Origin: Paenibacillus sp. FSL H8-0548
GTDB lineage: Bacteria; Bacillota; Bacilli; Paenibacillales; Paenibacillaceae
Assembly: GCF_038630985.1 (NCBI RefSeq)
Contig: NZ_CP152049.1
Location: forward strand, 5,042,501-5,106,500
Length of the DNA: 64,000 nucleotides
Direction: 5' to 3'
Shown: one piece after another, positions 11,432-31,260 of the stretch
Numbering within the stretch: position 1 is the stretch's first letter
Layout: each line of letters opens with the position of its first letter
Notes under the pieces: model-generated
Seen by the model: the letters and a program-made list of their open reading frames with translations, nothing else
What the model was told of the DNA's origin: nothing
Databases searched by the model: none
Program-made: the position numbers and the translations under genes

Positions 11432-13087
11432 TTAGACAGTATCAAGAATAAAATCAACGATCTCCTTGGGATTTTCAAGACTGTGGGGATGATGCCCCAC
11501 ACCTGGCCTCAATATCAGCTTTATTTGACCACCACTTCTTTTTAACTGTTTTATTAATATGGCTCCATTTTCTTTATAGGGAACAACAGTATCGGCTTCA
11601 CCTGCTACAATAATTACAGGTATGCCTGCCTTTATAACCTCATCTGCTCTATGAATCGGAGATTCTATAAAACTGGATAATGTACGATCATTCCATCCAT
11701 ATATAATTTTGCATTCTTCCCATTCTCCGGGTGACCCTTCACCTTCCCCCTCGCCGCCTGGCCAGCTTCGAAGATCAAGGACAGGTGCATCCAGATAAAT
11801 CGCGGATACCATGTTAGAATAGGTTGCCGCATAGTTGAATGCATAAAGGCCTCCTCTGCTAAATCCAAACAGGACAGCCTGATTAGAAAGCCCATATGAT
11901 TTTATCAGATAATTATGAAAGTCATGCATCATGACAACAGCTTCAGGGCAGCCATATAGATTGCTGATTCGATAATAGGCTATACAATATCCCTTTTCAA
12001 GCATGGCCATATCGGCATAGGAGAAAGCATCAAAAAATTCCGTTCTCCAAATCCACGGATTTCCAGCAGCCGCACTTTTGGGTTCTACGAGAATAGCTTC
12101 TCTTCCATTCAAATAGAAATCATGTCGCCTATAGCTTTTCCAATTCGATATCTTATCTTTAAAGGACTCCTCCTGTGAAAGGATAGCTTCATTAATTTCA
12201 ATATCCAATTGTGCTGCGGCTGCTATAGCTTCATTGATTGGCAAAGCCTCCACCTTGTTGGGATTAGTGTGCCCTACATATTCCTTCCAAGCTGAGCTCA
12301 ATATTCTGTGTCGTTTCATAGTCAGTTCGAATGCAGGTACTGTACCGTCATCTGCTGTTAAATAACTAGGTTTACGTTCGAGACATATATGAAATAAACC
12401 TTTCAAAAGCACCTTTGCCATAACCCAATGACCATCCTTATCCGGATGAATTCCGTCCCCAAAAAGAAAGCCTGGATTTTGATTTCTTTCTTCTAGAATA
12501 AACTGTGATAGAGGCCCGTATAAATCAATAACCTTATCAGCTGTCCCAACCAAGTTCTCTTTTATCCACTCACCATAATGGTGTAACACAGTTGAATAGT
12601 CCTTATATGGCTCCAGATAGCTATACTGCATACCATCAGATAACAGGTTGCTTGTTCTTGCTGAAATGGAATCAAAAGGAGTTGGTGTCATAACTATAAC
12701 CCTGGATCCATACTCTTTTATCTTGCTGATAAGCTCCAGCATACCTTTTTTATAAGCTTCAAATCTTTCATATGACAGCGGATAGTAGATACCATCATTC
12801 ATCCCATAACATACAACGACCCATTCCGGTTTACATAGTTCAAGGACTTTGTCTAAGCGATCCAATACACACGGTCGTGGAAAAGGATGGTCTGGTTCAC
12901 TTAGACCAGACACTGTTTCACCGCTTACACCCAGATTAATGAAATCCAGAGTTTTATGTGGCAAATGTTGAATAAAATAATGCTTCATATACGCTATGAA
13001 AGTTCCATCAGCGGTTATGCTATCACCTAAAAAAACAATTTTTTTGGTATCCGGCACATATCCGCCTTTATTTAGAATATTTTGCAA
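11432..13087 (-). CDS. Two-domain esterase: SGNH hydrolase fused to alpha/beta hydrolase
   Basis: Residues 1-235 are an SGNH/GDSL esterase: IVFLGDSITADG (Ser23), GVSGETVSG, CYGMNDGIYYP and a late GDGIHPDKDGH box with the Asp/His pair. Residues about 320-551 are an alpha/beta hydrolase: GFSRGG with Ser410, GEADTVVP with Asp499 and VGHHPHS with His532/533. So two complete catalytic triads appear in one chain. No signal peptide is seen, so it probably de-acylates imported oligosaccharides in the cytoplasm. The TTG start sits one base after the stop of the beta-helix gene, and its GGGGGAAG ribosome site lies in that gene's last codons. Substrate is inferred from the locus. Confidence 0.82.
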   Translation of the reverse strand: MQNILNKGGYVPDTKKIVFLGDSITADGTFIAYMKHYFIQHLPHKTLDFINLGVSGETVSGLSEPDHPFPRPCVLDRLDKVLELCKPEWVVVCYGMNDGIYYPLSYERFEAYKKGMLELISKIKEYGSRVIVMTPTPFDSISARTSNLLSDGMQYSYLEPYKDYSTVLHHYGEWIKENLVGTADKVIDLYGPLSQFILEERNQNPGFLFGDGIHPDKDGHWVMAKVLLKGLFHICLERKPSYLTADDGTVPAFELTMKRHRILSSAWKEYVGHTNPNKVEALPINEAIAAAAQLDIEINEAILSQEESFKDKISNWKSYRRHDFYLNGREAILVEPKSAAAGNPWIWRTEFFDAFSYADMAMLEKGYCIAYYRISNLYGCPEAVVMMHDFHNYLIKSYGLSNQAVLFGFSRGGLYAFNYAATYSNMVSAIYLDAPVLDLRSWPGGEGEGEGSPGEWEECKIIYGWNDRTLSSFIESPIHRADEVIKAGIPVIIVAGEADTVVPYKENGAILIKQLKRSGGQIKLILRPGVGHHPHSLENPKEIVDFILDTV

Positions 13088-13088
13088 T

Positions 13089-15200
13089 TTACTTCCCCCT
13101 AAAGTCTGGCAAAAGTCCGAATCTATCCATTGGAAAATTCTTAAAGCCTAGCTTAAGCGCTGGAGACTCCGGAAGCACGGAGTAGTCACCCTGATCAGCT
13201 GCGCGAAATAACGGATTAGCGTAGACTGAATGTGTATCCCAACCAAGCTCCTTCCACTGCTCCAAATTGAATTGCTCTGTCCTTGTCCTCAAAGGTCGAT
13301 AGTGAATAATAGCTTTAAATTCCCCTATATCATTATAGAAGAGATTGTAGTCCAATTCCTGCAGCCACTTGCCATCTATAGGAGGTCCAATGAACTTATA
13401 GATTGCTCCGTTCGACTGCTCATTCTTAAAGTCAATATCAGCCTCGGGTCGATCCATTTCAGAATTCATGACGATAATATTCCGAACAAAGCGATCTGAA
13501 TTATGTTCATAACCGATATGAATGCCTGGTGGGTTAGCAGCATTAACAAATATATTATTCTCTACCAAGCGATAATCGCCTTCACGCAGCTTAATAGATA
13601 TGCCTATACATAAATTATTATAAACATGATAGTTTGAAGAACCATCATCTAAATCAATTCCCCAGCCCTTATCGTCTTTAAATCGATTATTCCTAATGAT
13701 CACTGGCTTCTGGGCATCGAGCTTGACTTGACCCGCGCCATGAGAATCTGGTCCATGAGATTGGTTCAGGCACCAGAAACGATCTCTTCCCCATGAGTTG
13801 AAAGGCCCGTGATCCCCTGTTTCCAGCACGGTATTATGAATATCATTAAATTCGATAATATGCCCGCCCCATGTGCCGTCGTTTATACAAATAGCGGCGC
13901 GTGGAACATGATGAATATGATTATGGCTTATCCAATTATTTTTGCTGACTGAAAGAAACACACCAGCTGTCTGCTTACCAAATACGCCGATGTGATGAAT
14001 TAAGTTATTAGAAACTACGTTTTCGGCAGGATACGCATATTGACTGCCTAAGGTATGAATTTTAGAACCTACAAGACAGACTCCGCTATCACCTGCATCC
14101 ATTATTCGATTGCCATAAATCTTGTTCCTTCGATTATATTGATTGAGGAATACTGCATTGCCTCCAACAGCATCCATAAAGCAATGCTCGAGAACACAAT
14201 CCTCAGCACCCTCCATGTAAACTGCTCCCCCACGGTGCAGGGCCCAGTCTCCTAGCGAAGGTGCCTCATATAACTCCAAGAATGTGCTCATAGTATGGGC
14301 TATTCGAAACCCTGAAATCGTAATATGATGGACAGGACGATCCTGCGTGCCTCTGAACACAATAACCTGCTTGAGACGAGGTGCTTCCACTATCGCACAT
14401 TGAATATCCGCTCCGGCCTGAGGAAACCAGTACAGCTTTCCTAATTCATGATTCAAATACCACTCACCTGGAGAGTCCAATTCCTCAAACACATTCTCAA
14501 TGTAATAGCGCGAATGTTCGTTGATGCCGCTCGCATTTTGGCCTTGCATCATTTCATTGATTTGAAAGCCGCCACGGCCTAATTGAATCTTATGCGTCTG
14601 TTCATCTAGATCACTTAATGCCCATTGCAAGTTTCCCCATTCTGATGTAGGGAAGATATGCATAACCGCTTCTTGGGGCTTAGCCCATTGTCGGGATGTA
14701 AATGTCTTTGGGTCATAATGGATGAACTGGTGGGGCCATTCTAAATCTGTTGAATTCGGATGCAGGTAACCTGTTGTCGGAAAACGTGCTCTTGTTTGCC
14801 TCTTGCCGTTCACGAACAATTGTGTGAATGCCGAACCATTATAAGAATAGTTGTCCAGATTGCACATCATAATTCCGTCCCGATAAGTTTCCCATTTTCC
14901 CTTCACCAGTTGCCCGCCGCTTATTGTTGGAGTTTCACCAGGATAGGCCTGGTAAGTAATTTGACATGCTTCAGTTCCTGAATCCTCTGGATTAAACTCC
15001 AGAGGTTTTTCCAAATAATACGTCCCTCCTCTGACATATACGTTAATGGGACCTTTCATCTTATCTTTTATACCACGTACAGCAAGAATCGCTCTTTCTA
15101 TTGTTGCAAAAGGCGAGTGCCTCTCTCCTGAGTGAGAATCGTCTCCATTAGTTGAAACATAAAATTCCGCCGCTGCTTCTAACTGTTGTTTAAGCACCAT
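13089..15200 (-). CDS. Right-handed parallel beta-helix protein, probably a GH141-like glycosidase
   Basis: 703 residues without signal peptide, hence cytoplasmic. The N-terminus has EFYVSTNGDDSHSGERHSPF, then a GGTYYLEKPLEF turn and PTISGGQ, as at the start of many beta-helix carbohydrate-active proteins. From about residue 300 there are parallel beta-helix rungs rich in NxIxxxG, HHI and NNIF. The same opening pattern recurs in the beta-helix part of the 2130-residue protein, so the two are paralogous modules. Assignment to GH141 (a family including fucosidases and xylanases) is inference from length, architecture and the fucosidase next door; catalytic residues cannot be fixed by eye. AAGGAG precedes the ATG. 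Confidence 0.75.
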   Translation of the reverse strand: MVLKQQLEAAAEFYVSTNGDDSHSGERHSPFATIERAILAVRGIKDKMKGPINVYVRGGTYYLEKPLEFNPEDSGTEACQITYQAYPGETPTISGGQLVKGKWETYRDGIMMCNLDNYSYNGSAFTQLFVNGKRQTRARFPTTGYLHPNSTDLEWPHQFIHYDPKTFTSRQWAKPQEAVMHIFPTSEWGNLQWALSDLDEQTHKIQLGRGGFQINEMMQGQNASGINEHSRYYIENVFEELDSPGEWYLNHELGKLYWFPQAGADIQCAIVEAPRLKQVIVFRGTQDRPVHHITISGFRIAHTMSTFLELYEAPSLGDWALHRGGAVYMEGAEDCVLEHCFMDAVGGNAVFLNQYNRRNKIYGNRIMDAGDSGVCLVGSKIHTLGSQYAYPAENVVSNNLIHHIGVFGKQTAGVFLSVSKNNWISHNHIHHVPRAAICINDGTWGGHIIEFNDIHNTVLETGDHGPFNSWGRDRFWCLNQSHGPDSHGAGQVKLDAQKPVIIRNNRFKDDKGWGIDLDDGSSNYHVYNNLCIGISIKLREGDYRLVENNIFVNAANPPGIHIGYEHNSDRFVRNIIVMNSEMDRPEADIDFKNEQSNGAIYKFIGPPIDGKWLQELDYNLFYNDIGEFKAIIHYRPLRTRTEQFNLEQWKELGWDTHSVYANPLFRAADQGDYSVLPESPALKLGFKNFPMDRFGLLPDFRGK

Positions 15201-15288: not shown

Positions 15289-16611
15289 TCACATTTCTAC
15301 ATTTGTTATTCTAATAGCCACAGGATACGGCCATTGTCTATTATCATATGGACGGTAGGTGAGCATGGCTTGAATATGGAGTCCATTCTCATCCTGATCC
15401 CATTTCGCTTTTGGGTTAATGTCAGGACGATGCTCTAACACCCTGCCTGTCTGACCAACTAGCTCGATTTGAGAAGCTTCTGTAGCGCGAACACCCTTTA
15501 TTGTAATGTGTTTCCAGTTTTCCATCTTAGTCTTGAAATCACATCCATGATTCCATGCTTCTCCCAATACGAAAGCATATACGGTGTTTTCATCCTTCGC
15601 CTTTAAGTACCATATGTTTCCTTCATTCAATACCTTCCAGGGTCGAACCTTGTAAATGGCCTCTTGATTAAAAAATAAAAACAGTCCAATTTCACGCAAT
15701 ATTTCTTCTTGTTCTTTTGGTATTCTACCTTTAGAATCAGGTGCTACATTTAGAAGGAGGTTACCTCCCATTGCTCTAGTTTTTATAAGCAGCTCTATAA
15801 GCTCCATCGGCGATCTATAATTGTCTTTATATGGCTTATACCCCCAGCTGTCCCCCATAAAATAACAGGCTTCCCATGCAAAATCCATTGGCTCTGTAGG
15901 ATTGTTATTTTCCGGAGTTTGCATTTCACCTCTGGTAACAAGGCACTCAGGCTGTATATCCCAAACCATCTCCTTTAACCCTTCAGGTGGTCCGTCAAAA
16001 AATACAAGTCCTATATCACCATAGTTTGTTAACAATTCTCTCAGCTGGGCTTGGTTATATTCCATCAACTCAGGATTATTTTTCGGTAGAACCTCCGGTG
16101 TCGCAAAATGCATTTCGTGTCCTTTCTTATAATTCCATAGGAAATCAAAGGGTGAAAAATAGAATCCAGGCACAATGGATTTTCGGCGAAAAGCTTCTAC
16201 GATTTCCTTCGTAATATCTCTTTGAAAGGGTGTATTCATAATATTAAAGTCTGTGGTATGTGTATCGTACATGCAAAAACCATTATGGTGCTTCGTTGTA
16301 AAGCACATATATTTCATACCTGCCTGTCTTGCCAGATCTGCGATATCATCAGCGTCGAAGTATTTAGGATTGAATTCCTTCGGCTTATCCTCAATAAACT
16401 GATCGATTAAGCGTTCCTCCGCACCACACATCCAATGACTAACGGTAGAACCCATTACACTGTCCAAGCTCCAATGTATAAACATTCCAAAAGCAAGATC
16501 GCGAAACTCTTCTTCCTTATTGGCTTTATTACCTGCAGCTCCTCCACTTGTTTCCTTTGTGGACACTAGGTTTTCAATAGTTATATCTGCGTATACTTCT
16601 CTTATAGTCAT
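15289..16611 (-). CDS. GH29 alpha-L-fucosidase
   Basis: Family GH29 retaining alpha-L-fucosidase, 440 residues. Landmarks: FRDLAFGMFIHWSLDSV near the N-terminus, CFTTKHHNGFCMYDT (the conserved KHHDGF-type motif), FYFSPFDF, and GLVFFDGPPEG holding the probable nucleophile Asp206. GGNLLLNVAPDSKGRIP is the usual late motif. No signal peptide, so it probably acts on imported fucosylated oligosaccharides. The ATG at 16611 is chosen because AAGGAGAAG precedes it by four to five bases; the frame extends 21 codons further without a ribosome site. A terminator stands between the SLH gene and this one, so it may have its own promoter or depend on read-through. Confidence 0.92.
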   Translation of the reverse strand: MTIREVYADITIENLVSTKETSGGAAGNKANKEEEFRDLAFGMFIHWSLDSVMGSTVSHWMCGAEERLIDQFIEDKPKEFNPKYFDADDIADLARQAGMKYMCFTTKHHNGFCMYDTHTTDFNIMNTPFQRDITKEIVEAFRRKSIVPGFYFSPFDFLWNYKKGHEMHFATPEVLPKNNPELMEYNQAQLRELLTNYGDIGLVFFDGPPEGLKEMVWDIQPECLVTRGEMQTPENNNPTEPMDFAWEACYFMGDSWGYKPYKDNYRSPMELIELLIKTRAMGGNLLLNVAPDSKGRIPKEQEEILREIGLFLFFNQEAIYKVRPWKVLNEGNIWYLKAKDENTVYAFVLGEAWNHGCDFKTKMENWKHITIKGVRATEASQIELVGQTGRVLEHRPDINPKAKWDQDENGLHIQAMLTYRPYDNRQWPYPVAIRITNVEM

Positions 16612-16639
16612 TTCTCTTCTCCTTTTTCGAAAAAAATGA

Positions 16640-16680
16640 ATACATCTGCGAAATAGATCAATCCTATTTCGCAAATGTAT
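16640..16680 (-). terminator. Terminator between the SLH gene and the fucosidase gene
   Basis: A 17-base stem with one mismatch and a seven-base loop (ends at 16640 and 16680), followed on the minus strand by a run of seven T. It lies 24 bases after the SLH-gene stop and 29 bases before the fucosidase start, splitting the locus into two expression units. Confidence 0.75.
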
Positions 16681-16703: not shown

Positions 16704-18377
16704 TTATAATCCGCCACTCTTCTCTAGAAGCTGATAGAGGATCGTTGCCGCTTCTGCTCTTGTTGTATCATCAAGCGGTGCAAATAAATATCCTGGCTTT
16801 CCGTTAATAATGCCCATTTGCTGCGCACTGGCAACGGATTCCCCCGCCCATGGTGCGATGCTTACGCCATCCGCGAATGCAGCTACCGCGAGCTTGTTAT
16901 CTATGGGTGCACCCAGCTTCTCATAGACCCGCATGGCCACAATCGCCATCTCTTGGCGTGTGATATTATCGTTAGGACGCATAGAGGTTCCGTCGCCGGC
17001 TAAAATACCTGACAGACTGGCCGCAGCAATCATATCTGCATACCAGGCACCTGAGTGGACATCCCGGAATTCTCCCTTATACTCAGCTTCAGGCAATTTC
17101 AACATTCGTACCGCCATAGCAGCAAACTCGGCTCTTGTCACCTTGTCGTTCGGATTGTAATGTGTATCATCCACGCCGAAGACAATATGCTTCGCTGCCA
17201 ATACTCCAATAAAGTCATTAGCCCAATGGGCACTGTCAATGTCAGCAAAGAATTTGTGGTATTCGAGCACCGCATACTCGGAAAAGTGTTTCGCCTTGAA
17301 GGTAATAGACTTCTTGTCCTTGCTTATCTTGCCGCCAGCGTACTCCCATTCTCCAGTCGTCTCATTATGGTAATATACGCCCGCTTTCCGTGAGTCATAT
17401 TCTTCGCCAAGACCGAGCGTGACTTCCACCAGCTTGTCGATCTTCACATCCATGTTCCCGGCCTTAATGGAAATATCGAAGATATTGGTAACGGGCTTCA
17501 GCCCAGCTCCTGGGGCTACGGCAAACGCATCTCTGTCCGCGATTGATATCCGTATATAGTCCGTGATTCCATCCAACTTAAGAGAAACTTTCGACAGTAC
17601 CATACTTACCTCGCCCGACCTGATAATAATATCCTTGTTGTTATCTTGAATTCGGGTCAGCACTGACAGCGGAATAACCAGCACCTTGCCGAATGTTTTC
17701 CCGATGGAGCTTAAATCAATCGTAATGGCTTCCTCGGAACTTTGAATGGCGCTAGCTATTCGTACTGGATCTATCATCAGTACCCTAGTGTCGCCGGAAA
17801 CTGTAATTGTCCCCCACTCATGAGTTGTATCGTCGGGATCTCCAATGCTGATTGGATCGTTTGGATTACCAGTCCCGCTTGGATTGCCGTCAGCCGCACT
17901 AATCTTCAGGCTAACAGAATTGCCCGTATATAAGTCTGAGCGAGACAACTGCGAGTTAAGAGTCTTCACCGATTCCAGTGCGATTACTGCCTGTCCGTCG
18001 GTCAATCCCTTGAATGTAAAGCTGCCCAACAATACGTTTCCGTTCTCCCCCGAGCGATTTCCAGTTTTGGTGAAGGCAAAAGTCGCCTTGTTGCCGTTCT
18101 TGATCGGTCCAACCGGAAACCCCTGCAAATTAGAATGTGCACCTTTCAACTCCACAATCTGCGGGTCATAGGCGAGTACAATCTCGTAAGAATATAGATC
18201 GTTGAGATTTTCACCCGCTAAGCTAAGCGCTGCCGTCATACCCGGCTTGATGTCCGTTTTGTCCAGGGAAATCGTAAACTTTGCCGGGCTAATTGTATCT
18301 GCCGCGTAGGATAATTCTCCGAATGCTGTCATCATGAAAAAAACTGCCAGCAGTATACAAATCCATGTCCTCTTCAT
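16704..18377 (-). CDS. Surface-anchoring protein: cohesin-like domain plus three SLH repeats
   Basis: 557 residues. A signal peptide (MKRTWICILLAVFFMMTAFG, ending about residue 26) is followed by a cohesin-like domain at about residues 30-160, with FTISLDKTDIKPGMTAALSL, an EIVLAYDPQIVELKG strand and GSFTFKGLTDGQAVIAL. A middle beta-rich domain spans about 190-370. Three SLH repeats fill about 375-557 (for example FADIDSAHWANDFIGVLAAK and NPNDKVTRAEFAAMAVRML). SLH repeats bind secondary cell-wall polymer, so the cohesin-like domain should be displayed outside. This is the plan of small cellulosome anchors such as OlpA. The upstream neighbour ends in a dockerin, 82 bases away in the same direction. 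AGGAGGTGG precedes the ATG by six bases. Confidence 0.88.
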   Translation of the reverse strand: MKRTWICILLAVFFMMTAFGELSYAADTISPAKFTISLDKTDIKPGMTAALSLAGENLNDLYSYEIVLAYDPQIVELKGAHSNLQGFPVGPIKNGNKATFAFTKTGNRSGENGNVLLGSFTFKGLTDGQAVIALESVKTLNSQLSRSDLYTGNSVSLKISAADGNPSGTGNPNDPISIGDPDDTTHEWGTITVSGDTRVLMIDPVRIASAIQSSEEAITIDLSSIGKTFGKVLVIPLSVLTRIQDNNKDIIIRSGEVSMVLSKVSLKLDGITDYIRISIADRDAFAVAPGAGLKPVTNIFDISIKAGNMDVKIDKLVEVTLGLGEEYDSRKAGVYYHNETTGEWEYAGGKISKDKKSITFKAKHFSEYAVLEYHKFFADIDSAHWANDFIGVLAAKHIVFGVDDTHYNPNDKVTRAEFAAMAVRMLKLPEAEYKGEFRDVHSGAWYADMIAAASLSGILAGDGTSMRPNDNITRQEMAIVAMRVYEKLGAPIDNKLAVAAFADGVSIAPWAGESVASAQQMGIINGKPGYLFAPLDDTTRAEAATILYQLLEKSGGL

Positions 18378-18459
18378 GTTTGCCACCTCCTGTGGTGGGG
18401 AATGCAGAATCACACTCCCCGCATATGACCAAATTATCTATCGTATACCATTAAGCAAA

Positions 18460-21400
18460 TCAGTTTCCGATGATCCTTCTGGCCACGAAGGTTAGGTCGA
18501 AGATGTCAATTGCACCACTGCTGTCAATGTCAGCGATCTTAATCGCAGCCCAGTCATTGCCCGCAGAGCTCTCTCCAAAATGGTATGCCACATAACCCAG
18601 ATCGGCGATGGTGATCCGTCCGTCTGATCCGGTCACATCACCGGTATTTGCAGTAATGACCATGCTCTCGAACGAGACCATAGCCTGATTCAGTTGCACG
18701 ACCACCTGATCCAGTTCGGCATTCGTTGCATCCGTATCATCTAGTACGACTTGAACTTCTATCAGAGCTGTATTCAACGCAGCCTTTGCTCCCAGCACAT
18801 ACTGACCGTTGGCATAGCCTTCTATTGCGCTATCATACAAACTTTGCGCGGCTTGCACGGCTGCCTGCAGCGCTGCCCGATCGATCTTCTCCACAACTGT
18901 TACCGACTTCTGCACAAGCACGTTCTGTTGCTCATTCCCATTGCCGTCTGCCAGTACCGCTTGGTTGATGACAAATATCGAATCAGTTGAAGCGACTTTC
19001 GCCTGGAAGGTCAGATTCAGCACAGGCACATCGCCGTTCAATGCATTCCCGGAACCGGTTGTCGCTAGGATGTACCTTACCGTTCCAGGAGTGCTGCTGT
19101 ATGTGCTCGCAATTACTGTGTTAGATTCCAACGATACTGCGTCAATCAAATCAAACACTTGGCTATCATAAGAAAGCGTGACATCCTGCGCTGACACATC
19201 TGTCGCGCCGATCAGTCCATAGGTGAGCGTGTAGGTGTCCCCCACATCTGCCCAGTCATCACCTGTCAATGCAACAGCCATAATATTTAGCGCTTCAGAA
19301 TTACTTAATGTCATGGAACCAGCACCGACAATAACACCGAAATAACCTGGCTCAGTCAAAGCATTGCTCGCGGTGTCCAGATAATTGACAACCGTTATAC
19401 CGTCTACAATTAATTTGATCCTTACATGTTCACCTTCGTTTATCGCTCCAACTTGAATGTGATGTGTTTCCCTAAACTGCACCATGGTGTTCAGAATCGC
19501 ATCACCGCCTAGACTTGGAGATCCCGCGATATTCCCATAAATAACGGTTCGTACACCATTATTAAAACGCTGAACCTCAAGAACGCTCTTCCTAAAGGAA
19601 ATGACATAACCTGAATTCCCTGCATTCACAGGCCTGATCGTGTCAGTTGGACTACGAAGTGTTATAGAAGGCCAATCACTATCTGTCGTATCAATGTTCA
19701 TATTGAAATCTAATATTTCATTCGAAAATTTATTCTGATACACAGCATAACCCGATGGTGTTATAAGCTTAATACTATCCGGTGTGATTGTTTTTGTTCC
19801 GGAACCACTTACATACCAATACGGATAGTCCAAAGCCACATCTCCACTTGGTGCATCAATAATCTCAATTTCGAATATCGCAGTTTTACTTATTCCAGCA
19901 TAAGTTCCTGACACTGAAATTTCAGCTATACCCGCACCAACTCCGGTCATACTGCCGCTTTCATCTATCGTGACTGCAGATGAGTTCGATGTATAGGTGA
20001 GCGATACAATCGGAACAGTTCCACCGATTGCCGTTACACCTACAGCAGTTAGCTGCTGAGATTCCCCGACCTTCAATTTAGAATAAGGAGCGTTTAACTC
20101 TATGAGAGCTAATTCATCATCAACATAGATGAAGGTTTTGGCAACCTTTGTAATCCCATTAGAAGTTACTTCGGCTGTAATCTCTGTTACGCCAAAGCTT
20201 AAAGCGGAGACCAAACCATTCTCATCTACTGTTGCGACTTGTGTATCACTGCTACCATATACAATCTGAGCTTGTGTTAAATCCGCATAGACGCCTCTTA
20301 TTGTCTTACCTTCCACATATAATTGAACCGTATAACCGCTTTCAACATTCGAATCTTCGCTAGAAAATTGCACTTCGCTCAGATCGTAGAAATCCTGTCT
20401 AAGATGAGCGTAACCGCTCTCCAGACCCGCATTTGCTATCAACTGCCTTGCCTCTAATGGCCAGTTAGCATCAGGGTAAACCTGAGGCTCAGAAATTTGG
20501 ATGTTCGGTTGATTTAGCTCTGGTCTGAACAATAGATCTCCACCTGTAATATAGCTATTGTTAATAGAAATATTCTCATTTGCTGAATTGGCGATATTCA
20601 CATGTGCCCAGATCGGTGTATTCTCCATAACGTTATCTTCAACTACCCAGTTGGAGCTTCCCATATCAAAATAAAGCGCACCATATTTCGGTTCTCCCTG
20701 ATTTCGAATAAAATTCCCGGATATCACGTTAGGATGGGTAGTCGTGCCATTCGTGGCACCTATCGCGTAGATCGCCCCTCCATCGGTCATATCATGCATG
20801 AAGGTATCGATATAATTATTCTGGATTCGGTTAGATTGCGTGACAGGATGAACTTCACCCCACCCGTAACCAAAATGAATCGCACTATAGGGAACATTGT
20901 AAATTTCATTATTGCTAATATCCATTTCAATCGGATATGCAGCTGAAATCGCTGTTCCCGATTGATATTCCTGAGCAATGTCATGAATAACATTATTCAG
21001 AATATCGTTGTTATATAGCAAATATCCTAAGTTGTCCGGATTGATGTTGTTTTTGTTCTCCTCCCCACGCCAAGACGGATCGCCTACGCTAATCGCATTT
21101 CCAGATATATCATGGAACTGATTGCCACGAATCAAATTATTTTGACTGCCTTTAACAACTTTAATCCCTGTAATCCCCATCTTCGAAAAGTCATTGCGTT
21201 CGAACAGGATCAATCTTGCATATTCTAACGTTATTGCCGCATCGGGTAACAGATCGTTATAGTCAGGTGATAATCCCCATTCCCGAATATGATTATTCTG
21301 TGTATCGGAATGCCCATTCACTCCATTAGGTCTTAACCAACCCGTATATTCAAACTTAATATCCCGAAATTGAATATGGTGTATAGGGTTATTCACCGAG

Positions 21401-24400
21401 CTCCCTTGTAGCTTAAGCAGTTCATCTACAACTGGAACGACTACGTTTGCAGTCGACATATCTTCTCCTGCTGTTGGCTTGTAGTACAAATATCCCGTGG
21501 AGCGGTTTAGATACCATTCCCCTTCACTATCTAACAATTCATATGCATTCTCAATATAACTGGGCAGAACAGCTGAAGTTCCGCCTTTATGTGTGACATA
21601 GTAGCTCCCCGGCTTCTTCATGTAAATATTCAAGCGATCATTGGCAACGTTGACCTGATCAATTCCTAAACGTGAAACCGTGAATATGTTCTTATAAACA
21701 AATTCCACATCTTGAATGTTGCCCCAGCTTGCCATAGACAAATCCGTTGTTGTATGAGCAGGGTTCCCATTCGAATAGGAATCTATATTGTAGGTTCCAC
21801 TCGCAAGTCCTCCAGTACTTCTTGCCCGGATAGCTCTTGTACCATTAACATATAGCTGTCTTGTCTCCACTTCAGTCCCTATATAGGCTTTATAGATATT
21901 CTTATCAGCATCGTGTATGGACCAGTCATTAATCTGCATTCCCCCGCTGATCACAGATGTTTCATCCTCATAGGATTTATAGATAATGTTAAAACCGTTT
22001 GTTCCTGAATCTCTATCATCAAAAACTAACGAGCTCGTCCTAAGCGGAAAGCTCGATGCGGGAGCCGTACTGTCCAATTTATTAATTAATGGAATATTAG
22101 ATACCGTTACGCTCTGCGGTTTATATGTCCCCTCGCGCAGATTAACAACAATATCACCCGACATATTGCTATTTATTGTACGAACATAATCCCTAGCCTT
22201 CTCAAGGCTAGCGAATGGAGCGGTAAGTGTGCCTGGGTTATTGTCATTGCCGTTCGTAGGATCAACATAGAGCTCCACTTCCGCATTAATTTCCATTCGA
22301 ATCGCTTCGACCGTTGGTGTGTACACATTACCAGCTTTAATCAGGTCCAATTCTGCCGTGGTGAGCGTAGATATCTTAACATCATCGATTTCGTTTCCTG
22401 GATCATCATTCTTGAAAATCCATTTTAGCTTAGCGATGTCGTTGCTAGTGCTGTAGAGTGGATATAATGCCACCGGATCCTGCGAATCCCCCATCCAAGC
22501 TCCGTACTGGGCATTAGCCAAATCAAATACAATACTCATGGAAAACCATTGATCTTTCTGGATACCGATTGAATTGGGTATCCTATAAATCGTATTGCTG
22601 TTTGTATATTTCAGTAAGGCACCTTTATCTTGAACAAAAGTAATTTCGCCAAGCTGAACATTACTACTATTGTAAAATCTGATTACCTTGCTTATTCCGG
22701 AAGCAGTTCCATAGTTCGGATCCGTGAATTTCATTTTGAATTGCATAAGTACATTTCCGCTTAGGGGTGTAAAGGTTCGATTGTATTCACCGAACACGGT
22801 AGCGCTGTCGTTAATGATCAGTAACGATTTATCGATATCTGTTACTGGAACAACTTGCATGGTTCCTGCATTCTTACTCCAACCAATTAAATCTTGATTT
22901 CCTGCTAAATCGTTGAAGGTATCGTTGATCACTAAATTTTCAGGCTCTGGCTCTGGCTCCTCTGGCCCAACAATGATTGAACTTGTTGTCATAATCTCTG
23001 AACTTACAATACTTCCTATGGAATCGATGAGATTATAATAATAGGCCTTCGTATTTGCTGGCAAATGAGTCGTTATCATCTTTTCTGTATGGTTAATGCT
23101 TACCGAAGTCTGTTCCCATGTGCGACCAACACCTATATCTGTTGTGTAAATCAGCATTGCAGCATTTAAATCTTCTGGTGAGCTGTAATTAACCCAGGCA
23201 TGTTCATCGACCAGACCTTGATCAACAACCTTTGGACGTGCTGCACCATCTTTGAAATGCATGTCGGCGTACGCTACGAAATCCGGAGCATTCCAGTTTT
23301 CGCGATTGCCATGCACACTATCGGTTATGAGTCTTAATGAAACCTCTCCTTGAACAAGCTGATAGCTTTTCTGCCAGATTTCCACCGGATAGAATCCGTC
23401 ATTTGTTCCATTAGCATACAGCATAGGCATTTGCGCATGATCCAAATAGCTGCTTGGATCAAAATAATCAATCCAAAGCTGCCTTTGCCTAGCAGTAAGC
23501 TTCGTGTCGAGGATACTCTTCCAGGCACTATCCTCATAAATAAATCCACTACCGTACACGGGCATGGCTAAATTTAAGCGCGGGTCCAATCCGGCAACCA
23601 TATTCGTAAAGTAGCCACCCCAAGAGATCCCCATCACTCCAATTTTATCGGGATTTACCTCCGGCTGATTGTACAAGAAGGAAACAGCCCTGATTGCAGC
23701 CGTGGTAGCATGATATGACCACATTTCCTTCAGATTTTCGTTTGAGATCTTCGTAAATCGGTCAACTTCTGAAGTCGTAGGACCTCCTACTCCTTCGCTA
23801 GCGCTACCGTTCATGTCAATAGCAATAGCTGCATATCCTTTCGCTGTCCATTGTTCAACCCATTCTTGATAAGCATAACCCCCGCCTCCATGAAGCAATA
23901 GCATAGCTGGAACTTTTTGCGTAGCCGAAGCGCTTTTTGGGTATCCATAAATAGCGAATATTTTTGTATCTGCCCCCATGTAAGGTTCATTTTTGTACAG
24001 TAAGGATTTTACGGTGTAATTAGCCGTATCCTTAATTGTTGTAACCGATTCAACTTCAGGAGCCTGGGTCAATTGATCCATATTCCATAGATTTATAGGT
24101 TCCTGTGGCGGTTCTTCAACCCCGGATTTAATCAGGTCCAATTCTGCCGTAGTTAACGTAGATATCTTAACATCATCAATTTCAGTTTCTGTATCTTCAT
24201 TCCTAAAAATATATTTGAGTTTTTTGATGTCACTGCTAATATTGTAAAGTGGATATAATGTCACTGGATCTTGCGTATCTCCCATCCAAGCGCCATACTG
24301 GGCATTCGCCAAATCAAATACAATATTTATGGAAAACCATTGATCCTTCTGGATACCGATCGAATTGGGTATCTTATAAATCGTATTGCTGTTTGTATAT

Positions 24401-24852
24401 TTCAGTAAGGCACCTTGGTTTTGAACAAAAGTAATTTCGCCAAGCTGAACATTACTACTATTGTAAAATCTGATTACCTTGCTTATTCCGGATGCAGTTC
24501 CATAGTTCGGATCCGTGAATTTCATTTTGAATTGCATAAGTACATTTCCACTCAGGGGTGTAAAGGTTCGATCATATTCGGCAAATACGGTAGTACTATT
24601 GTTTAAAATCTGCAGCGACTTTTCGGTTGCATAGGTGCTGTCTGTGACTGAAACGACTTGCATGGTTCCCGCATTCTTACTCCAACCGACTAAGTCCTGA
24701 TTGCCTGCTTGATCGTTGAAGGTATCATTGACCATGATATCTGCAGCATGAGTTACAGATGCATAGCTACCAGTAAATAGTAATTGAAAGACTAATACAA
24801 AACATATGATGAGGCTTAGTTTCCTTGGAAATTTCCAATTCAAAGAAATCAC
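18460..24852 (-). CDS. Secreted multidomain esterase / beta-helix protein with cohesin-like and dockerin modules
   Basis: 2130 residues with a signal peptide (about 1-37). In order: a lectin-like jellyroll (40-245); an alpha/beta hydrolase (255-600) with nucleophile Ser410 in GISWGGY, Asp in NGTNDGFYP and His in DSVHGN; a second lectin-like domain nearly identical to the first (637-840); a right-handed beta-helix (855-1440) paralogous to the 703-residue neighbour; two Ig-like BIG2 repeats (1490-1660); a third, diverged lectin-like domain (1670-1855); a cohesin-like domain (1860-1985); a FIVAR-like helical segment (1988-2060); and a type I dockerin (2068-2130) with DVTGSDGRITIAD and DIDSSGAIDIFD calcium loops. 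It probably deacylates and cleaves a polysaccharide at the cell surface. Start is GTG 24852 or TTG 24843 (GGGTGA upstream favours the latter). Domain limits are approximate. Confidence 0.85.
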   Translation of the reverse strand: MISLNWKFPRKLSLIICFVLVFQLLFTGSYASVTHAADIMVNDTFNDQAGNQDLVGWSKNAGTMQVVSVTDSTYATEKSLQILNNSTTVFAEYDRTFTPLSGNVLMQFKMKFTDPNYGTASGISKVIRFYNSSNVQLGEITFVQNQGALLKYTNSNTIYKIPNSIGIQKDQWFSINIVFDLANAQYGAWMGDTQDPVTLYPLYNISSDIKKLKYIFRNEDTETEIDDVKISTLTTAELDLIKSGVEEPPQEPINLWNMDQLTQAPEVESVTTIKDTANYTVKSLLYKNEPYMGADTKIFAIYGYPKSASATQKVPAMLLLHGGGGYAYQEWVEQWTAKGYAAIAIDMNGSASEGVGGPTTSEVDRFTKISNENLKEMWSYHATTAAIRAVSFLYNQPEVNPDKIGVMGISWGGYFTNMVAGLDPRLNLAMPVYGSGFIYEDSAWKSILDTKLTARQRQLWIDYFDPSSYLDHAQMPMLYANGTNDGFYPVEIWQKSYQLVQGEVSLRLITDSVHGNRENWNAPDFVAYADMHFKDGAARPKVVDQGLVDEHAWVNYSSPEDLNAAMLIYTTDIGVGRTWEQTSVSINHTEKMITTHLPANTKAYYYNLIDSIGSIVSSEIMTTSSIIVGPEEPEPEPENLVINDTFNDLAGNQDLIGWSKNAGTMQVVPVTDIDKSLLIINDSATVFGEYNRTFTPLSGNVLMQFKMKFTDPNYGTASGISKVIRFYNSSNVQLGEITFVQDKGALLKYTNSNTIYRIPNSIGIQKDQWFSMSIVFDLANAQYGAWMGDSQDPVALYPLYSTSNDIAKLKWIFKNDDPGNEIDDVKISTLTTAELDLIKAGNVYTPTVEAIRMEINAEVELYVDPTNGNDNNPGTLTAPFASLEKARDYVRTINSNMSGDIVVNLREGTYKPQSVTVSNIPLINKLDSTAPASSFPLRTSSLVFDDRDSGTNGFNIIYKSYEDETSVISGGMQINDWSIHDADKNIYKAYIGTEVETRQLYVNGTRAIRARSTGGLASGTYNIDSYSNGNPAHTTTDLSMASWGNIQDVEFVYKNIFTVSRLGIDQVNVANDRLNIYMKKPGSYYVTHKGGTSAVLPSYIENAYELLDSEGEWYLNRSTGYLYYKPTAGEDMSTANVVVPVVDELLKLQGSSVNNPIHHIQFRDIKFEYTGWLRPNGVNGHSDTQNNHIREWGLSPDYNDLLPDAAITLEYARLILFERNDFSKMGITGIKVVKGSQNNLIRGNQFHDISGNAISVGDPSWRGEENKNNINPDNLGYLLYNNDILNNVIHDIAQEYQSGTAISAAYPIEMDISNNEIYNVPYSAIHFGYGWGEVHPVTQSNRIQNNYIDTFMHDMTDGGAIYAIGATNGTTTHPNVISGNFIRNQGEPKYGALYFDMGSSNWVVEDNVMENTPIWAHVNIANSANENISINNSYITGGDLLFRPELNQPNIQISEPQVYPDANWPLEARQLIANAGLESGYAHLRQDFYDLSEVQFSSEDSNVESGYTVQLYVEGKTIRGVYADLTQAQIVYGSSDTQVATVDENGLVSALSFGVTEITAEVTSNGITKVAKTFIYVDDELALIELNAPYSKLKVGESQQLTAVGVTAIGGTVPIVSLTYTSNSSAVTIDESGSMTGVGAGIAEISVSGTYAGISKTAIFEIEIIDAPSGDVALDYPYWYVSGSGTKTITPDSIKLITPSGYAVYQNKFSNEILDFNMNIDTTDSDWPSITLRSPTDTIRPVNAGNSGYVISFRKSVLEVQRFNNGVRTVIYGNIAGSPSLGGDAILNTMVQFRETHHIQVGAINEGEHVRIKLIVDGITVVNYLDTASNALTEPGYFGVIVGAGSMTLSNSEALNIMAVALTGDDWADVGDTYTLTYGLIGATDVSAQDVTLSYDSQVFDLIDAVSLESNTVIASTYSSTPGTVRYILATTGSGNALNGDVPVLNLTFQAKVASTDSIFVINQAVLADGNGNEQQNVLVQKSVTVVEKIDRAALQAAVQAAQSLYDSAIEGYANGQYVLGAKAALNTALIEVQVVLDDTDATNAELDQVVVQLNQAMVSFESMVITANTGDVTGSDGRITIADLGYVAYHFGESSAGNDWAAIKIADIDSSGAIDIFDLTFVARRIIGN
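22336..22931 (-). repeat. Internal duplication, copy 2 (lectin-like domain)
   Basis: About 600 bases closely matching 24127-24733, with long stretches identical at nucleotide level, encoding the second lectin-like domain of the 2130-residue protein. Copy 2 lacks about four codons near its 5' coding end. Confidence 0.85.
24127..24733 (-). repeat. Internal duplication, copy 1 (lectin-like domain)
   Basis: Partner of 22336-22931, encoding the first lectin-like domain just after the signal peptide. The nucleotide-level similarity, including third positions, implies recent duplication or ongoing gene conversion. Confidence 0.85.
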
Positions 24853-25058: not shown

Positions 25059-26603
25059 TTACCTCGTAGCTAACCAAGCATCTAATTGTTTTTGCTTCTC
25101 TGCTATGATGATTTCTGCTCCCGCTAACTTTAGTTTCTCAATGAACTCTGGCATATACTTTTCAGGATCAACTGAACCTGTCCATAGTGAAGGTGCAAAC
25201 TCATCTACAACGGACTTAGATTGAGCAATCTCTGCTTTCACGGGTTCTTGGTCAAAGATGAAACCGAGTATTCTAGAAGCTTTAGCCGAGCTATTAAGTG
25301 CAATCGTCTGCTCCCACACATCATCCGGTTGTCCTGGAAGTAAGTAAGCATTGAACTGGTTCCCGAATGCCCATGCTTTGTTAGGGTAATATCCAGCATT
25401 CGCAATTAATTCGATCTTCTTGTCTCCAACCTTCTTGTAGTGCTTATCCTCGATGCCAAAGGTCATCAAGTTGTACAATTCAACATCGGTATTCATGAGC
25501 TCGATCATCATCATTGCACGCTCAGGATTTTTCGAATTACGATTAACCGCTTGCAGGGTAGCCGCAATATTTCCTGTCGTCACGTATGGCGTGTCAAGCG
25601 GCTGGAATAGATATTCCACAGGAACAAGTGAGAGCGACGCAGCTTCGTCTCCCGGTGCCTTATTTGAATAGCTTGACATGACATTACCCGTTTTTAATAA
25701 TGGCTGGATTTCTGTTAATGTACCTGCATCACGTGGAATATATCCTTTGTTGTACCAATCTCTCATTAAGTTAATATGCTCAAGAAACTGTGGAGATTCA
25801 AATTGATTAAACACTTTATGGTCAGTTCCATCAATACTTATTACGCCCGGTGTATCAAATCCTCCAATTTGCTCTAACCCATAATGGGTCAAAGCATCGT
25901 TGAACATACCGAGTTTATAATTTAGAACTGGTACTGCGCTTGCCGGTTCATTCTCCTTGATTGCTGCAAGGAAGGGTTCAAGATCTGCCATTTTAGTCAT
26001 TTTGGTAATATCAAAATTATATTTTTCTGCCATTAACTTTTGGACCTTAAAACCATTATTTCTAGCTACGATCTGATAGTTCGGAACTGCGTAAATATCA
26101 CCCTTAACGGTAACCGCTCCCCAGAAAGCTTCAGGAATGGTTGCATACGTGCCTGGGGCATACTCTTTTACTAAATCTGTAATCGGCAAGAATGCGCCCT
26201 TGGATTGACTACCGTAGAAATCTCCAATACCAGAACCAATCATAACGACATCATAATTCTCATTGGCAGCAATCATTGTTCTTACTTTGTCATTGTATGA
26301 ACCTGGATCGATGAACTTAATGTCCACCTCTGCATTGATTTTCTCTTTGAATACTTTATTCATCTCTGCAATAACTAACTTCGTATCTGCTTCTTCAGCA
26401 GCACGCATAATCCATGTGAGATTGACGAAAGGCAGCTCCTCTTTCACTTCTGCATCTCCTTCTGCTGTCCCCGTAGGTGAAGCAGCTGGAGATGCAGTTT
26501 CTTTCGCGACTTCATTGTTGTTACCGCATGCAGCTAGAGCTAATGACAAAAGCATGATGACAGCTAGCAGCAATAAAGCACCTTTTCTTGTAACCTTTTT
26601 CAT
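25059..26603 (-). CDS. Sugar ABC importer, solute-binding lipoprotein
   Basis: 514 residues. The lipoprotein signal ends in LALAAC with the lipidated Cys26, followed by a Pro/Ala/Thr spacer, then an extracellular solute-binding protein family 1 fold (DVVMIGSGIGDFYGSQ, VPNYQIVARNNGFKV). It resembles the LplA/YtcQ group of oligosaccharide binders found with YteP/YtcP-type permeases. It is the last gene of a three-gene operon; the permease genes precede it. The ATG at 26603 is chosen because AGGAGGG stands five bases upstream; the longer frame's ATG lies in that site. It should capture oligosaccharides released by the surface enzymes encoded downstream (inference). Confidence 0.9.
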   Translation of the reverse strand: MKKVTRKGALLLLAVIMLLSLALAACGNNNEVAKETASPAASPTGTAEGDAEVKEELPFVNLTWIMRAAEEADTKLVIAEMNKVFKEKINAEVDIKFIDPGSYNDKVRTMIAANENYDVVMIGSGIGDFYGSQSKGAFLPITDLVKEYAPGTYATIPEAFWGAVTVKGDIYAVPNYQIVARNNGFKVQKLMAEKYNFDITKMTKMADLEPFLAAIKENEPASAVPVLNYKLGMFNDALTHYGLEQIGGFDTPGVISIDGTDHKVFNQFESPQFLEHINLMRDWYNKGYIPRDAGTLTEIQPLLKTGNVMSSYSNKAPGDEAASLSLVPVEYLFQPLDTPYVTTGNIAATLQAVNRNSKNPERAMMMIELMNTDVELYNLMTFGIEDKHYKKVGDKKIELIANAGYYPNKAWAFGNQFNAYLLPGQPDDVWEQTIALNSSAKASRILGFIFDQEPVKAEIAQSKSVVDEFAPSLWTGSVDPEKYMPEFIEKLKLAGAEIIIAEKQKQLDAWLATR

Positions 26604-26663
26604 TTTGACCCTCCTCATATTTATCTTACTTATTTACTATCCCACAGGGAGAATAGCCCGACT

Positions 26664-27542
26664 TTAGCCCTTCAATGCTCCTACTGTTAATCCCTTAATG
26701 AAGTACTTCTGAAAGAAGAGGAATATAAACAGCATAGGACCAGCTGCGATAATGGCCATCGCCATTCGTGCCGACTCCGAAGGGAAATTCACAACCTCCA
26801 CGATCCCTAGCTGTCCAGCAGATCTCGCTAACTCTTGGATATTGGACATGATTTTGTGCATCAACAGCTGTAGTGGATATAGGTCGCGATTTTCGATAAA
26901 GAGCAAGCTTAACCACCAATCATTCCAATATCTCAGAACAGCTAATAATCCGACTGTGGCCAATGCCGGTTTAGATATTGGCAATATGATCTGAAGTAAT
27001 AAGCGATATTCGCTACAGCCTTCCACTCGTGCTGCTTCAATAATTTCAGTTGGAATAGCTGCAAAAAAAGTTCTTAATAGAATTAAAAACCAAGGGATTA
27101 CCGCATACGGCAGAATGAGCACCCAGAGGGTATCCTTCAAGTGATAATAATTGGATATTACGATGTACCAAGGAACAAGCCCGCCATTAAACAGCATCGT
27201 GAAGAATACATAAAACATGACAGGACGTTGAAATTTAAATTCTCTCCTGGACAGGGGGTAGGCAATTAAACAAAGCACAGCCAAGGAGAATAAGGTACCA
27301 AATATCGTAATAAATATGGATACTGCATAAGCCTTCATTATGACCATGGTGTCACTTAAAATATAGGAATAGGCCTCCCAGCTAAACTCCTTGGGGAATA
27401 AGGTATACCCGTGCTTATAGATACTGTCAATATCCGAGAATGAAATGGAAATAACCAATATTAACGGTAGAATACATGCTACTGAGACAATGGTCAGTAA
27501 TAGAATCGGAATCGCTGAGCTTATCCGTGATATCCATGTCAT
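26664..27542 (-). CDS. Sugar ABC importer permease (YtcP/LplC-like)
   Basis: 292 residues with six predicted membrane helices. The EAA loop that docks the ATPase is EAARVEGCSEYRLLLQIILP at about residues 178-197. It ends in FIKGLTVGALKG, typical of the MalG-like carbohydrate-uptake permeases. It follows the first permease gene by 15 bases and precedes the binding-protein gene. AAGGAG lies eight bases upstream of the ATG. No ATPase gene is present, so a shared MsmX-type ATPase is expected (known for this class in B. subtilis). Confidence 0.92.
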   Translation of the reverse strand: MTWISRISSAIPILLLTIVSVACILPLILVISISFSDIDSIYKHGYTLFPKEFSWEAYSYILSDTMVIMKAYAVSIFITIFGTLFSLAVLCLIAYPLSRREFKFQRPVMFYVFFTMLFNGGLVPWYIVISNYYHLKDTLWVLILPYAVIPWFLILLRTFFAAIPTEIIEAARVEGCSEYRLLLQIILPISKPALATVGLLAVLRYWNDWWLSLLFIENRDLYPLQLLMHKIMSNIQELARSAGQLGIVEVVNFPSESARMAMAIIAAGPMLFIFLFFQKYFIKGLTVGALKG

Positions 27543-27557
27543 CTTAAGTTCTCCTTT

Positions 27558-28463
27558 CTAGAAGAGCGCATTCTCTGCATTAATCTTACGTACAATCGTG
27601 TTCACCGTTATGACAAGTAGGAATCCTACAATCGCTTGGTAGAAACCAACTGCAGCAGACATGCCGACATCGCCTACAGCAATAAATGAACGGTATACAT
27701 ACGTATCAATAACAGAGGTTGTAGAATATAAGGTACCTGTATCTTTGGTTACCATATAGAACAAGCCAAAGTCTGAATGGAAGATACCACCTAGAGCAAG
27801 AATAGTTAAGATTACAATTAGAGGCGTTAACAATGGAACGGTAATCTTCCACCGCATCTGATTTTTAGTTGCACCATCTACTTCAGCTGCTTCATAATAA
27901 GAACGATCAATAGCCATTATCCCTGCATAGAAAATGATGGTGTTGTAGCCGACCTGCTTCCAAAAGTTAACGATTGTCAGAATATACGGCCACAGCTCCG
28001 GCTTCTGATACCATAGGATAAAATCGAATCCCAATTTCTCTAACCAACGATTCAATATACCCAAATCTACATTTAAAAAGGCAAAGGTTATAAACGCAAC
28101 AACCGGCCAGGATAAGAAGTAAGGGAAAAATAGTGTGGTTTGAAAAATTTTAACCGCCGTCTTTCGAGTAATCTCACTTAGAATGATGGCTAAGAATATA
28201 GCTCCTACGGTCACAGTAACAATAAAAAGAAGATTCATGAAAATCGTATTAAAGGTAACACGGAAGGCATCTTGTGAGCTAAAGAAAAATTCAAAATTTT
28301 TAAAGCCTACCCAATCGCTGCCCCAAATGCCCTGATCGTAACGGTAATCCTTAAAAGCTAGAATAACTCCGAACATAGGCACGTATTGGAATAGAAAGAG
28401 CAGCGCGATAGCTGGGAAACACATAATGAGTAAACTACGGTGTATCGATTTTTTCATCTGCAT
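27558..28463 (-). CDS. Sugar ABC importer permease (YteP/LplB-like)
   Basis: 301 residues, six membrane helices, with the EAA loop EAAEVDGATKNQMRWKITVP near residue 190. The N-terminal FLFQYVPMFGVILAFKDYR is typical of LplB/YteP permeases. First gene of the importer operon, preceded by GGAGGTGATTTGA. Its upstream region shares a 16-base string with the region before the beta-helix gene at 15200. The order regulator, permease, permease, binding protein, polysaccharide enzymes resembles the B. subtilis ytdP-yte-ytc rhamnogalacturonan region (established there; the parallel is inferred). Confidence 0.92.
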   Translation of the reverse strand: MQMKKSIHRSLLIMCFPAIALLFLFQYVPMFGVILAFKDYRYDQGIWGSDWVGFKNFEFFFSSQDAFRVTFNTIFMNLLFIVTVTVGAIFLAIILSEITRKTAVKIFQTTLFFPYFLSWPVVAFITFAFLNVDLGILNRWLEKLGFDFILWYQKPELWPYILTIVNFWKQVGYNTIIFYAGIMAIDRSYYEAAEVDGATKNQMRWKITVPLLTPLIVILTILALGGIFHSDFGLFYMVTKDTGTLYSTTSVIDTYVYRSFIAVGDVGMSAAVGFYQAIVGFLLVITVNTIVRKINAENALF

Positions 28464-31014: not shown

Positions 31015-31260
31015 AACCAATCATCACCGATCCTTATCGTAAAGTACACCCATAATATACTAGAAACATAACAGTTCTGCGATGAACTAGCCACTGTCCG
31101 AATTAACAAACACTCCAATTTATAAGAAATCCGGTTCAACTTCATTGGTAAACCAGAATATCTGCTATGACCAAGTGATTCTCCTCTCTACTACAAATCA
31201 TATTTACCTTACGAAAGTATACTCTAAGTTCTCACATATTTATAAATGCAAGACCTAGCA

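Follow-up and report, generated by a model that had tools for sequence, protein, structure and literature searches.

A gene pair for a dockerin enzyme and an SLH-cohesin anchor in Paenibacillus sp. FSL H8-0548 as a likely cassette of a genome-wide, scaffoldin-poor display system

Can two neighbouring genes make up a complete machine for holding an enzyme on the cell surface, or do they belong to something larger? The question is raised by a locus of Paenibacillus sp. FSL H8-0548 (contig NZ_CP152049.1, positions 5,042,501 to 5,106,500), of which the whole stretch of 64,000 nucleotides is called the window here. An open reading frame (ORF) at 24852-18460 on the minus strand encodes a 2130-amino-acid (aa) enzyme that ends in a dockerin, and after 46 bp a second minus-strand ORF at 18413-16704 encodes the anchor, a 569-aa protein that joins a cohesin to three SLH repeats. 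The original prediction had recognised two neighbouring genes in one direction, as found, and had proposed that the whole anchor-plus-enzyme set is reduced to these two in a minimal, single-purpose system. We found 19 dockerin proteins and nine anchors in the genome, with many dockerin enzymes of GH, PL11 and esterase kinds, so that neither the reduction nor the single purpose holds. Since many enzyme-and-anchor pairs occur in this genome and in its relatives, the pair looks like part of a larger display system rather than a stand-alone two-gene machine. It is likely to be one cassette of a genome-wide, scaffoldin-poor cohesin-dockerin display system with docking, chain growth and import.

A search for other dockerin genes, which the original prediction had suggested as a check, spoke against a two-gene set. 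In the genome, Pfam matches numbered 14 for dockerin and 25 for cohesin, and 12 stretches around these matches were read with profiles, together with the window. The census gave 18 enzyme-type proteins that combine a cohesin with a dockerin at the C-terminus, one adaptor and the nine SLH-cohesin anchors, the window's included; a cohesin was present in all 19 dockerin proteins. The catalytic modules comprised GH2, GH3, GH5, GH30, GH43, GH51-like, GH53, GH127, PL11, an alginate-lyase-like protein and GDSL/YXIM-type esterases, which we take to be mostly pectin side-chain and hemicellulose chemistry. L041:8735-16054, among the 18 enzyme-type proteins, had no recognised catalytic domain. The system is not a classical cellulosome, since among the 25 Pfam matches and in the 12 stretches plus the window no ORF had more than two cohesins. 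The maximum of two was found in the adaptor (L043:8671-9948, 425 aa), which has the order cohesin-dockerin-cohesin-dockerin and a signal-peptide-like start and lies between an enzyme gene and an anchor gene. A 1374-aa protein with a cohesin-like domain distant from its SLH repeats (L051:5496-9620) was left out of the counts for want of a match to the anchor profile; an ORF without SLH in L141, with a 45-bit match to that profile (A1, below), was also left out.

The anchors are closely linked to dockerin genes. All nine own anchors lay within 1 kb, on the same strand, of a gene with both a cohesin and a dockerin. For the relatives, we used 60 stretches, all but one chosen around a match of at least 75 bits to profile A1, which derives from the cohesins of the nine own anchors. 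These stretches held 61 anchor ORFs, 56 of them within 1 kb of a same-strand dockerin gene and 53 within 400 bp; three of the 56 neighbours had no visible cohesin (one dockerin-only ORF of 1236 aa and two short ORFs). Own and relatives' anchors together, 65 of 70 were linked, with a median gap of 66 bp and with the dockerin gene upstream in 50 cases and downstream in 15. A cohesin was also present in 81 of the 84 dockerin ORFs in these stretches, a count that is biased because the stretches were picked around anchors. Anchors at E 1e-18 or better were found in 37 of 51 genomes of the genus, the own included. A class-wide sample had anchors at E 1e-15 in at least 6 of 398 genomes (own included, all of the same family), a lower bound with at most ten candidates scored per genome, and a smaller sample gave one strong anchor match in another family of the order (G031). 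As separate observations, a 1452-aa chain (L105:6217-10575) carries an anchor-type cohesin and SLH repeats at its end, and a relative (G054:C1:4972802-4973946) has a 777-aa frame with two cohesins in tandem, possibly a small scaffoldin, beside a 522-aa dockerin frame.

The modules of the window pair are as follows.
18460..24852, minus strand: enzyme with alpha/beta-hydrolase (AXE1/DLH-like), GH141-type beta helix, Big_2, cohesin, FIVAR and dockerin (Pfam and signal scan)
23218..23973, minus strand: alpha/beta-hydrolase domain, acetyl xylan esterase/dienelactone hydrolase-like, about residues 294-545 (Pfam)
20413..22302, minus strand: GH141-type region with GH141_M (residues 993-1126) and a right-handed beta helix; this stretch served as the homologue query (Pfam)
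18919..19278, minus strand: enzyme-borne cohesin, residues 1859-1978 (Pfam, 42.4 bits, above cut-off)
18664..18879, minus strand: FIVAR-like three-helix domain, about residues 1992-2063 (structure model and homology to 2jnk/2ozn)
18463..18651, minus strand: dockerin, residues 2068-2130 (profile search and model)
16704..18413, minus strand: SLH-cohesin anchor, 569 aa counted from the first GTG, with an ATG followed by a signal-peptide-like sequence at 18377 (ORF and Pfam)
17901..18290, minus strand: anchor cohesin, residues 42-171, anchor class (profile search)
16746..17249, minus strand: three SLH repeats, residues 389-556 (99 bits)

The N-terminus of the enzyme was signal-peptide-like in a crude hydrophobicity scan, and its tail has the order cohesin-FIVAR-dockerin. 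The original prediction was right about the dockerin end and overlooked the enzyme's own cohesin and FIVAR-like domain. By sequence, the solved structures closest to the enzyme cohesin were those of Clostridium perfringens, 2vo8 (E 3.9e-5), 2jh2 (0.0081) and 2ozn chain A (0.011); of these, 2vo8 and 2jh2 were nearest. By profile and by fold, this beta-sandwich is a member of the cohesin family. The FIVAR-dockerin matched 2jnk/2ozn at E 1.7e-14, and 2ozn is a cohesin-dockerin complex according to its structure title. With a C-terminal FIVAR-dockerin on the enzyme and enzyme-borne cohesins, the arrangement is, on sequence evidence, of the C. perfringens type.

Two domains of the pair were weak in Pfam: the window dockerin scored 14.3 bits where the cut-off is 22.9, and the anchor cohesin 17.8 bits where it is 24.1. 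Against profiles of other same-genome members, the dockerin reached 49.8 bits and the cohesin 51.3 bits, with conditional E values of 2.2e-16 and 1.6e-16 among the ORFs of the stretches; these profiles contained neither domain, so neither looks like chance. The claim of a type I dockerin with both calcium loops stood for loop 2, which is canonical, and needs a caveat for loop 1, which has ligand-type residues but is one residue longer than in the genome's other 19 dockerin domains. With that extra residue the domain still falls on the calcium-type side. The model blocks that hold loop 1 had a predicted local distance difference test score (pLDDT) of 66-71.

The N-terminus of the anchor was also signal-peptide-like in the crude scan. 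A signal peptide, a cohesin and SLH repeats, as originally described, make this protein, judged from its domains, an SLH-anchoring scaffoldin of the OlpA kind. The single window anchor cohesin had no significant match by sequence among solved cohesins (5g5d at E 0.085, with designed proteins ranked higher). Profile A1 matched the type II cohesin 3l8q at E 1.3e-5, and the top structural matches of the homologous anchor L084 were cohesins, with the Coh-OlpA structure 3ul4 among the matches. The A1 scores were 75-172 bits for the relatives' anchors versus 20-45 bits for the other matches listed, and by this measure the anchor cohesins are a class apart from the enzyme cohesins. In a set of 5.8 billion proteins, a short-word search of limited sensitivity found one match to the window anchor cohesin (57% identity, 559 aa).

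We propose that the SLH protein would sit in the cell wall, where its single cohesin would hold the neighbouring enzyme by its dockerin. That enzyme's cohesin could in turn receive a dockerin from a further enzyme; enzymes would then act as their own scaffold, and chains could grow outward from the anchor. A utilisation locus would often bring its own anchor, and the products may enter through the adjacent ATP-binding cassette (ABC) transporter and undergo final breakdown by cytosolic enzymes that the locus encodes. The first step, which the original prediction had also put forward, is probable given the gene linkage, the fold of the homologous anchor and a co-fold of the homologous dockerin-anchor pair L084, for which docking is predicted (predicted template modelling score, pTM, 0.80).

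We also compared distances between the modules of 62 pairs. Anchor-cohesin distances correlated with neighbour-dockerin distances at r 0.53, compared with a mean of 0.11 and a maximum of 0.27 when shuffled within genomes, and with neighbour-cohesin distances at r 0.66 (mean 0.15 and maximum 0.33 after shuffling); enzyme cohesin and dockerin showed the strongest co-divergence (r 0.77). After thinning to 42 pairs, the anchor correlations were 0.38 with the dockerin and 0.46 with the enzyme cohesin; with SLH held constant, the partial r was 0.38 and 0.56, respectively. The correlations indicate that the cassettes travel together. Anchor and enzyme cohesins appear to change in step, as expected if they face one dockerin type, the alternative being shared history.

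Several results weigh against a display system of this kind. With the enzyme cohesin held constant, the anchor-dockerin partial r was 0.05, and with SLH held constant it was -0.02 in the ligand-poor class described below. We rejected co-divergence as proof of anchor-dockerin binding because its signal mostly vanishes in the first of these comparisons, a loss that shared cassette history may explain. The predicted docking concerns the homologous pair L084 and is judged by pTM. The window anchor is an isolated branch with a best identity of 38%. Five of the relatives' 61 anchors (L087, L089, one of two in L105, L114 and L133) had no dockerin gene within 1 kb. When stretches of four relatives were chosen by dockerin, Pfam found a cohesin in 32 of 43, so some dockerin proteins may lack one; two of the eleven misses (L137 and L101) gained a cohesin with the family profile, which was applied to these two only. 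Finally, homologues of the GH141 region were sought at E 1e-60 in the 51 genomes of the genus, and in the 12 stretches read none of the 13 homologous ORFs had a dockerin; the genus genomes searched thus gave no second example of the complete window cassette. SLH repeats were present in two of the 13, and two showed weak cohesin-like matches of 14 and 30 bits.

Might the anchor hold this enzyme alone, with nothing else joining? The private adjacency and the co-divergence of anchor and neighbour would suit such a two-gene, single-purpose mini-cellulosome, and the window anchor and dockerin diverge from the others, which could mean an insulated pair. However, the second cohesin, borne by the enzyme, would have no use in it, and the 18 other dockerin proteins of the genome count against it; we regard it as unlikely. 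It is quite improbable that the enzyme dockerin binds the enzyme's own cohesin, in a closed form or a homodimer, while the anchor cohesin serves something else. The two modules do share one chain and co-diverge most strongly, but the model of the window enzyme tail, in which the domains were well folded, had an overall pTM of only 0.63 and no confident internal docking (which bears on the closed form, not on the homodimer), and 65 of 70 anchors adjoin dockerin genes. That the SLH protein's cohesin-like domain is a plain structural Ig-like spacer is very improbable: its low Pfam score and the want of a significant solved cohesin for the single domain would fit, but the profile of the genome's other cohesins recognises it, A1 matches a type II cohesin of solved structure, cohesins lead the structural matches of the homologue L084, and the anchors are linked to dockerin genes.

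The display system proposed here may contain two kinds of dockerin. We scored 85 dockerin domains in the stretches at four positions per loop, which we assume to be the calcium-ligand positions. While 54 had ligand-type residues at all tested positions and four lacked one in a single loop, 27 lacked at least one in both loops, and most of these ligand-poor dockerins share the motif LVxG...ITIxDLS with few or no ligands. Of the 27, 23 are in relatives' stretches and four (L041 twice, L050 and L047) are in the following proteins of the own genome.
L041:2842-8589, ligand-poor dockerin protein
L041:8735-16054, ligand-poor dockerin protein
L050:7491-13310, ligand-poor dockerin protein
L047:8892-11270, ligand-poor dockerin protein

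Most ligand-poor dockerins sit in long enzymes adjoining SLH-cohesin anchors. With a slightly different cut, 62 paired cassettes were divided into 21 ligand-poor, 40 calcium-type and one mixed; the 21 came from 11 genomes, eight of which hold both kinds, and the median enzyme length was 1983 aa versus 1057 aa. The Pfam dockerin model at E 0.001 listed none of eight ligand-poor proteins tested (L041 twice, L050, L110, L100, L094, L128 and L092), which bears on a remark in the available part of a study of P. guangzhouensis that dockerins may have escaped domain models (PMC11557425). A profile made from the 14 Pfam dockerins still detected the two L041 dockerins and that of L050, none of which it includes, at 35.7, 42.3 and 54.5 bits. 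In six ligand-poor members of one lineage, the ratio of nonsynonymous to synonymous differences (pN/pS) of the dockerin was 0.20 (15 pairs, median pS 0.61), compared with 0.13-0.26 in four calcium-type groups, so the ligand-poor dockerin appears to be kept by selection in that one lineage. On the anchor-cohesin tree, the ligand-poor trait needs 6 changes versus 18.5 on average after shuffling, and none of 200 shuffles gave so few. The anchors of 17 of the 21 ligand-poor cassettes fall in one weakly supported group (Shimodaira-Hasegawa-like approximate likelihood ratio test, SH-aLRT, 84), with L092, L093, L094 and L120 elsewhere. We offer only tentatively the wider idea that a Paenibacillus-like genus has scaffoldin-poor, self-extending chains with private SLH-cohesin anchors and, in the same genome, parallel cassettes that work without calcium, both dockerin loops being stripped of most or all ligands while domain and partner are kept by selection.

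The usual description of cellulosomes is of machines that anaerobes build on a scaffold, and OlpA-kind clostridial anchors work beside a large multi-cohesin scaffoldin. The comparison with OlpA in the original prediction fits in role, that of a cohesin-SLH protein on which a dockerin enzyme is held, but the enzyme modules are nearest to C. perfringens cohesin and FIVAR-dockerin modules, and in the window's system the enzymes carry cohesins and most anchors adjoin a dockerin gene. The C. perfringens glycoside hydrolases with cohesin (X82) and FIVAR-dockerin modules (2ozn, 2vo8 and 2jh2) are the nearest solved relatives and likewise bear the modules on enzymes. They differ in that cohesin and dockerin are mostly on separate enzymes, with one GH31 having both, and SLH anchors are not mentioned in the available part of the source (PMC12997984). 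The multienzyme complex of P. curdlanolyticus B-6 also has an SLH surface protein, but the S1 protein is without cohesin or dockerin modules by the paper's own sequence, as far as the accessible text goes (PMC6823336). The general architecture is already in print for one species: the accessible text on the "scaffoldin-containing" system of P. guangzhouensis describes 28 dockerin-cohesin proteins, many of which have GH domains, together with five SLH anchors (PMC11557425). The likeness extends to GH enzymes with a single dockerin-cohesin pair, separate SLH-anchoring cohesin proteins and nearly all dockerins in cohesin proteins; that text, on one species, does not mention anchor-enzyme adjacency, an anchor-cohesin class, ligand-poor dockerins or spread in the genus (PMC11557425). 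In the open-licence literature, outside which most subscription journals lie, we found no report of a private-anchor rule, a separate anchor-cohesin class or dockerins ligand-incomplete in both loops, nor a relevant one of calcium-independent or degenerate-loop dockerins. The system may be a recurrent alternative to scaffold-built cellulosomes, in which enzymes are their own scaffold and wall anchors are encoded alongside. Its cassettes would be natural sets of possibly orthogonal cohesin-dockerin pairs, with a calcium-free version on offer if the ligand-poor class binds.

The genes around the pair are as follows.
28684..31020, minus strand: AraC-type regulator with a dCache match below the Pfam cut-off, upstream; probable control of the locus
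25059..28463, minus strand: ABC importer (solute-binding protein and two permeases), upstream of the enzyme in the same direction
15289..16674, minus strand: alpha-L-fucosidase family protein (PF01120), downstream of the anchor; no signal peptide seen
13089..15200, minus strand: second beta-helix/GH141_M protein, downstream; no signal peptide seen
11432..13087, minus strand: GDSL esterase and alpha/beta-hydrolase fusion, downstream; no signal peptide seen

This layout, with an importer and a regulator upstream and, downstream, enzymes with no evident signal peptide, suggests digestion at the surface, then import, then finishing inside the cell. A fucose-related substrate is plausible from the fucosidase-family gene that follows the pair. 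GH141 includes a fucosidase. The family also includes a xylanase, according to the title of a paper (PMC5593877), and thus leaves more than one substrate possible. In L153:7974-13988 and L157:7284-11450, homologues of the window enzyme's GH141 region are joined straight to three SLH repeats, another route to the surface.

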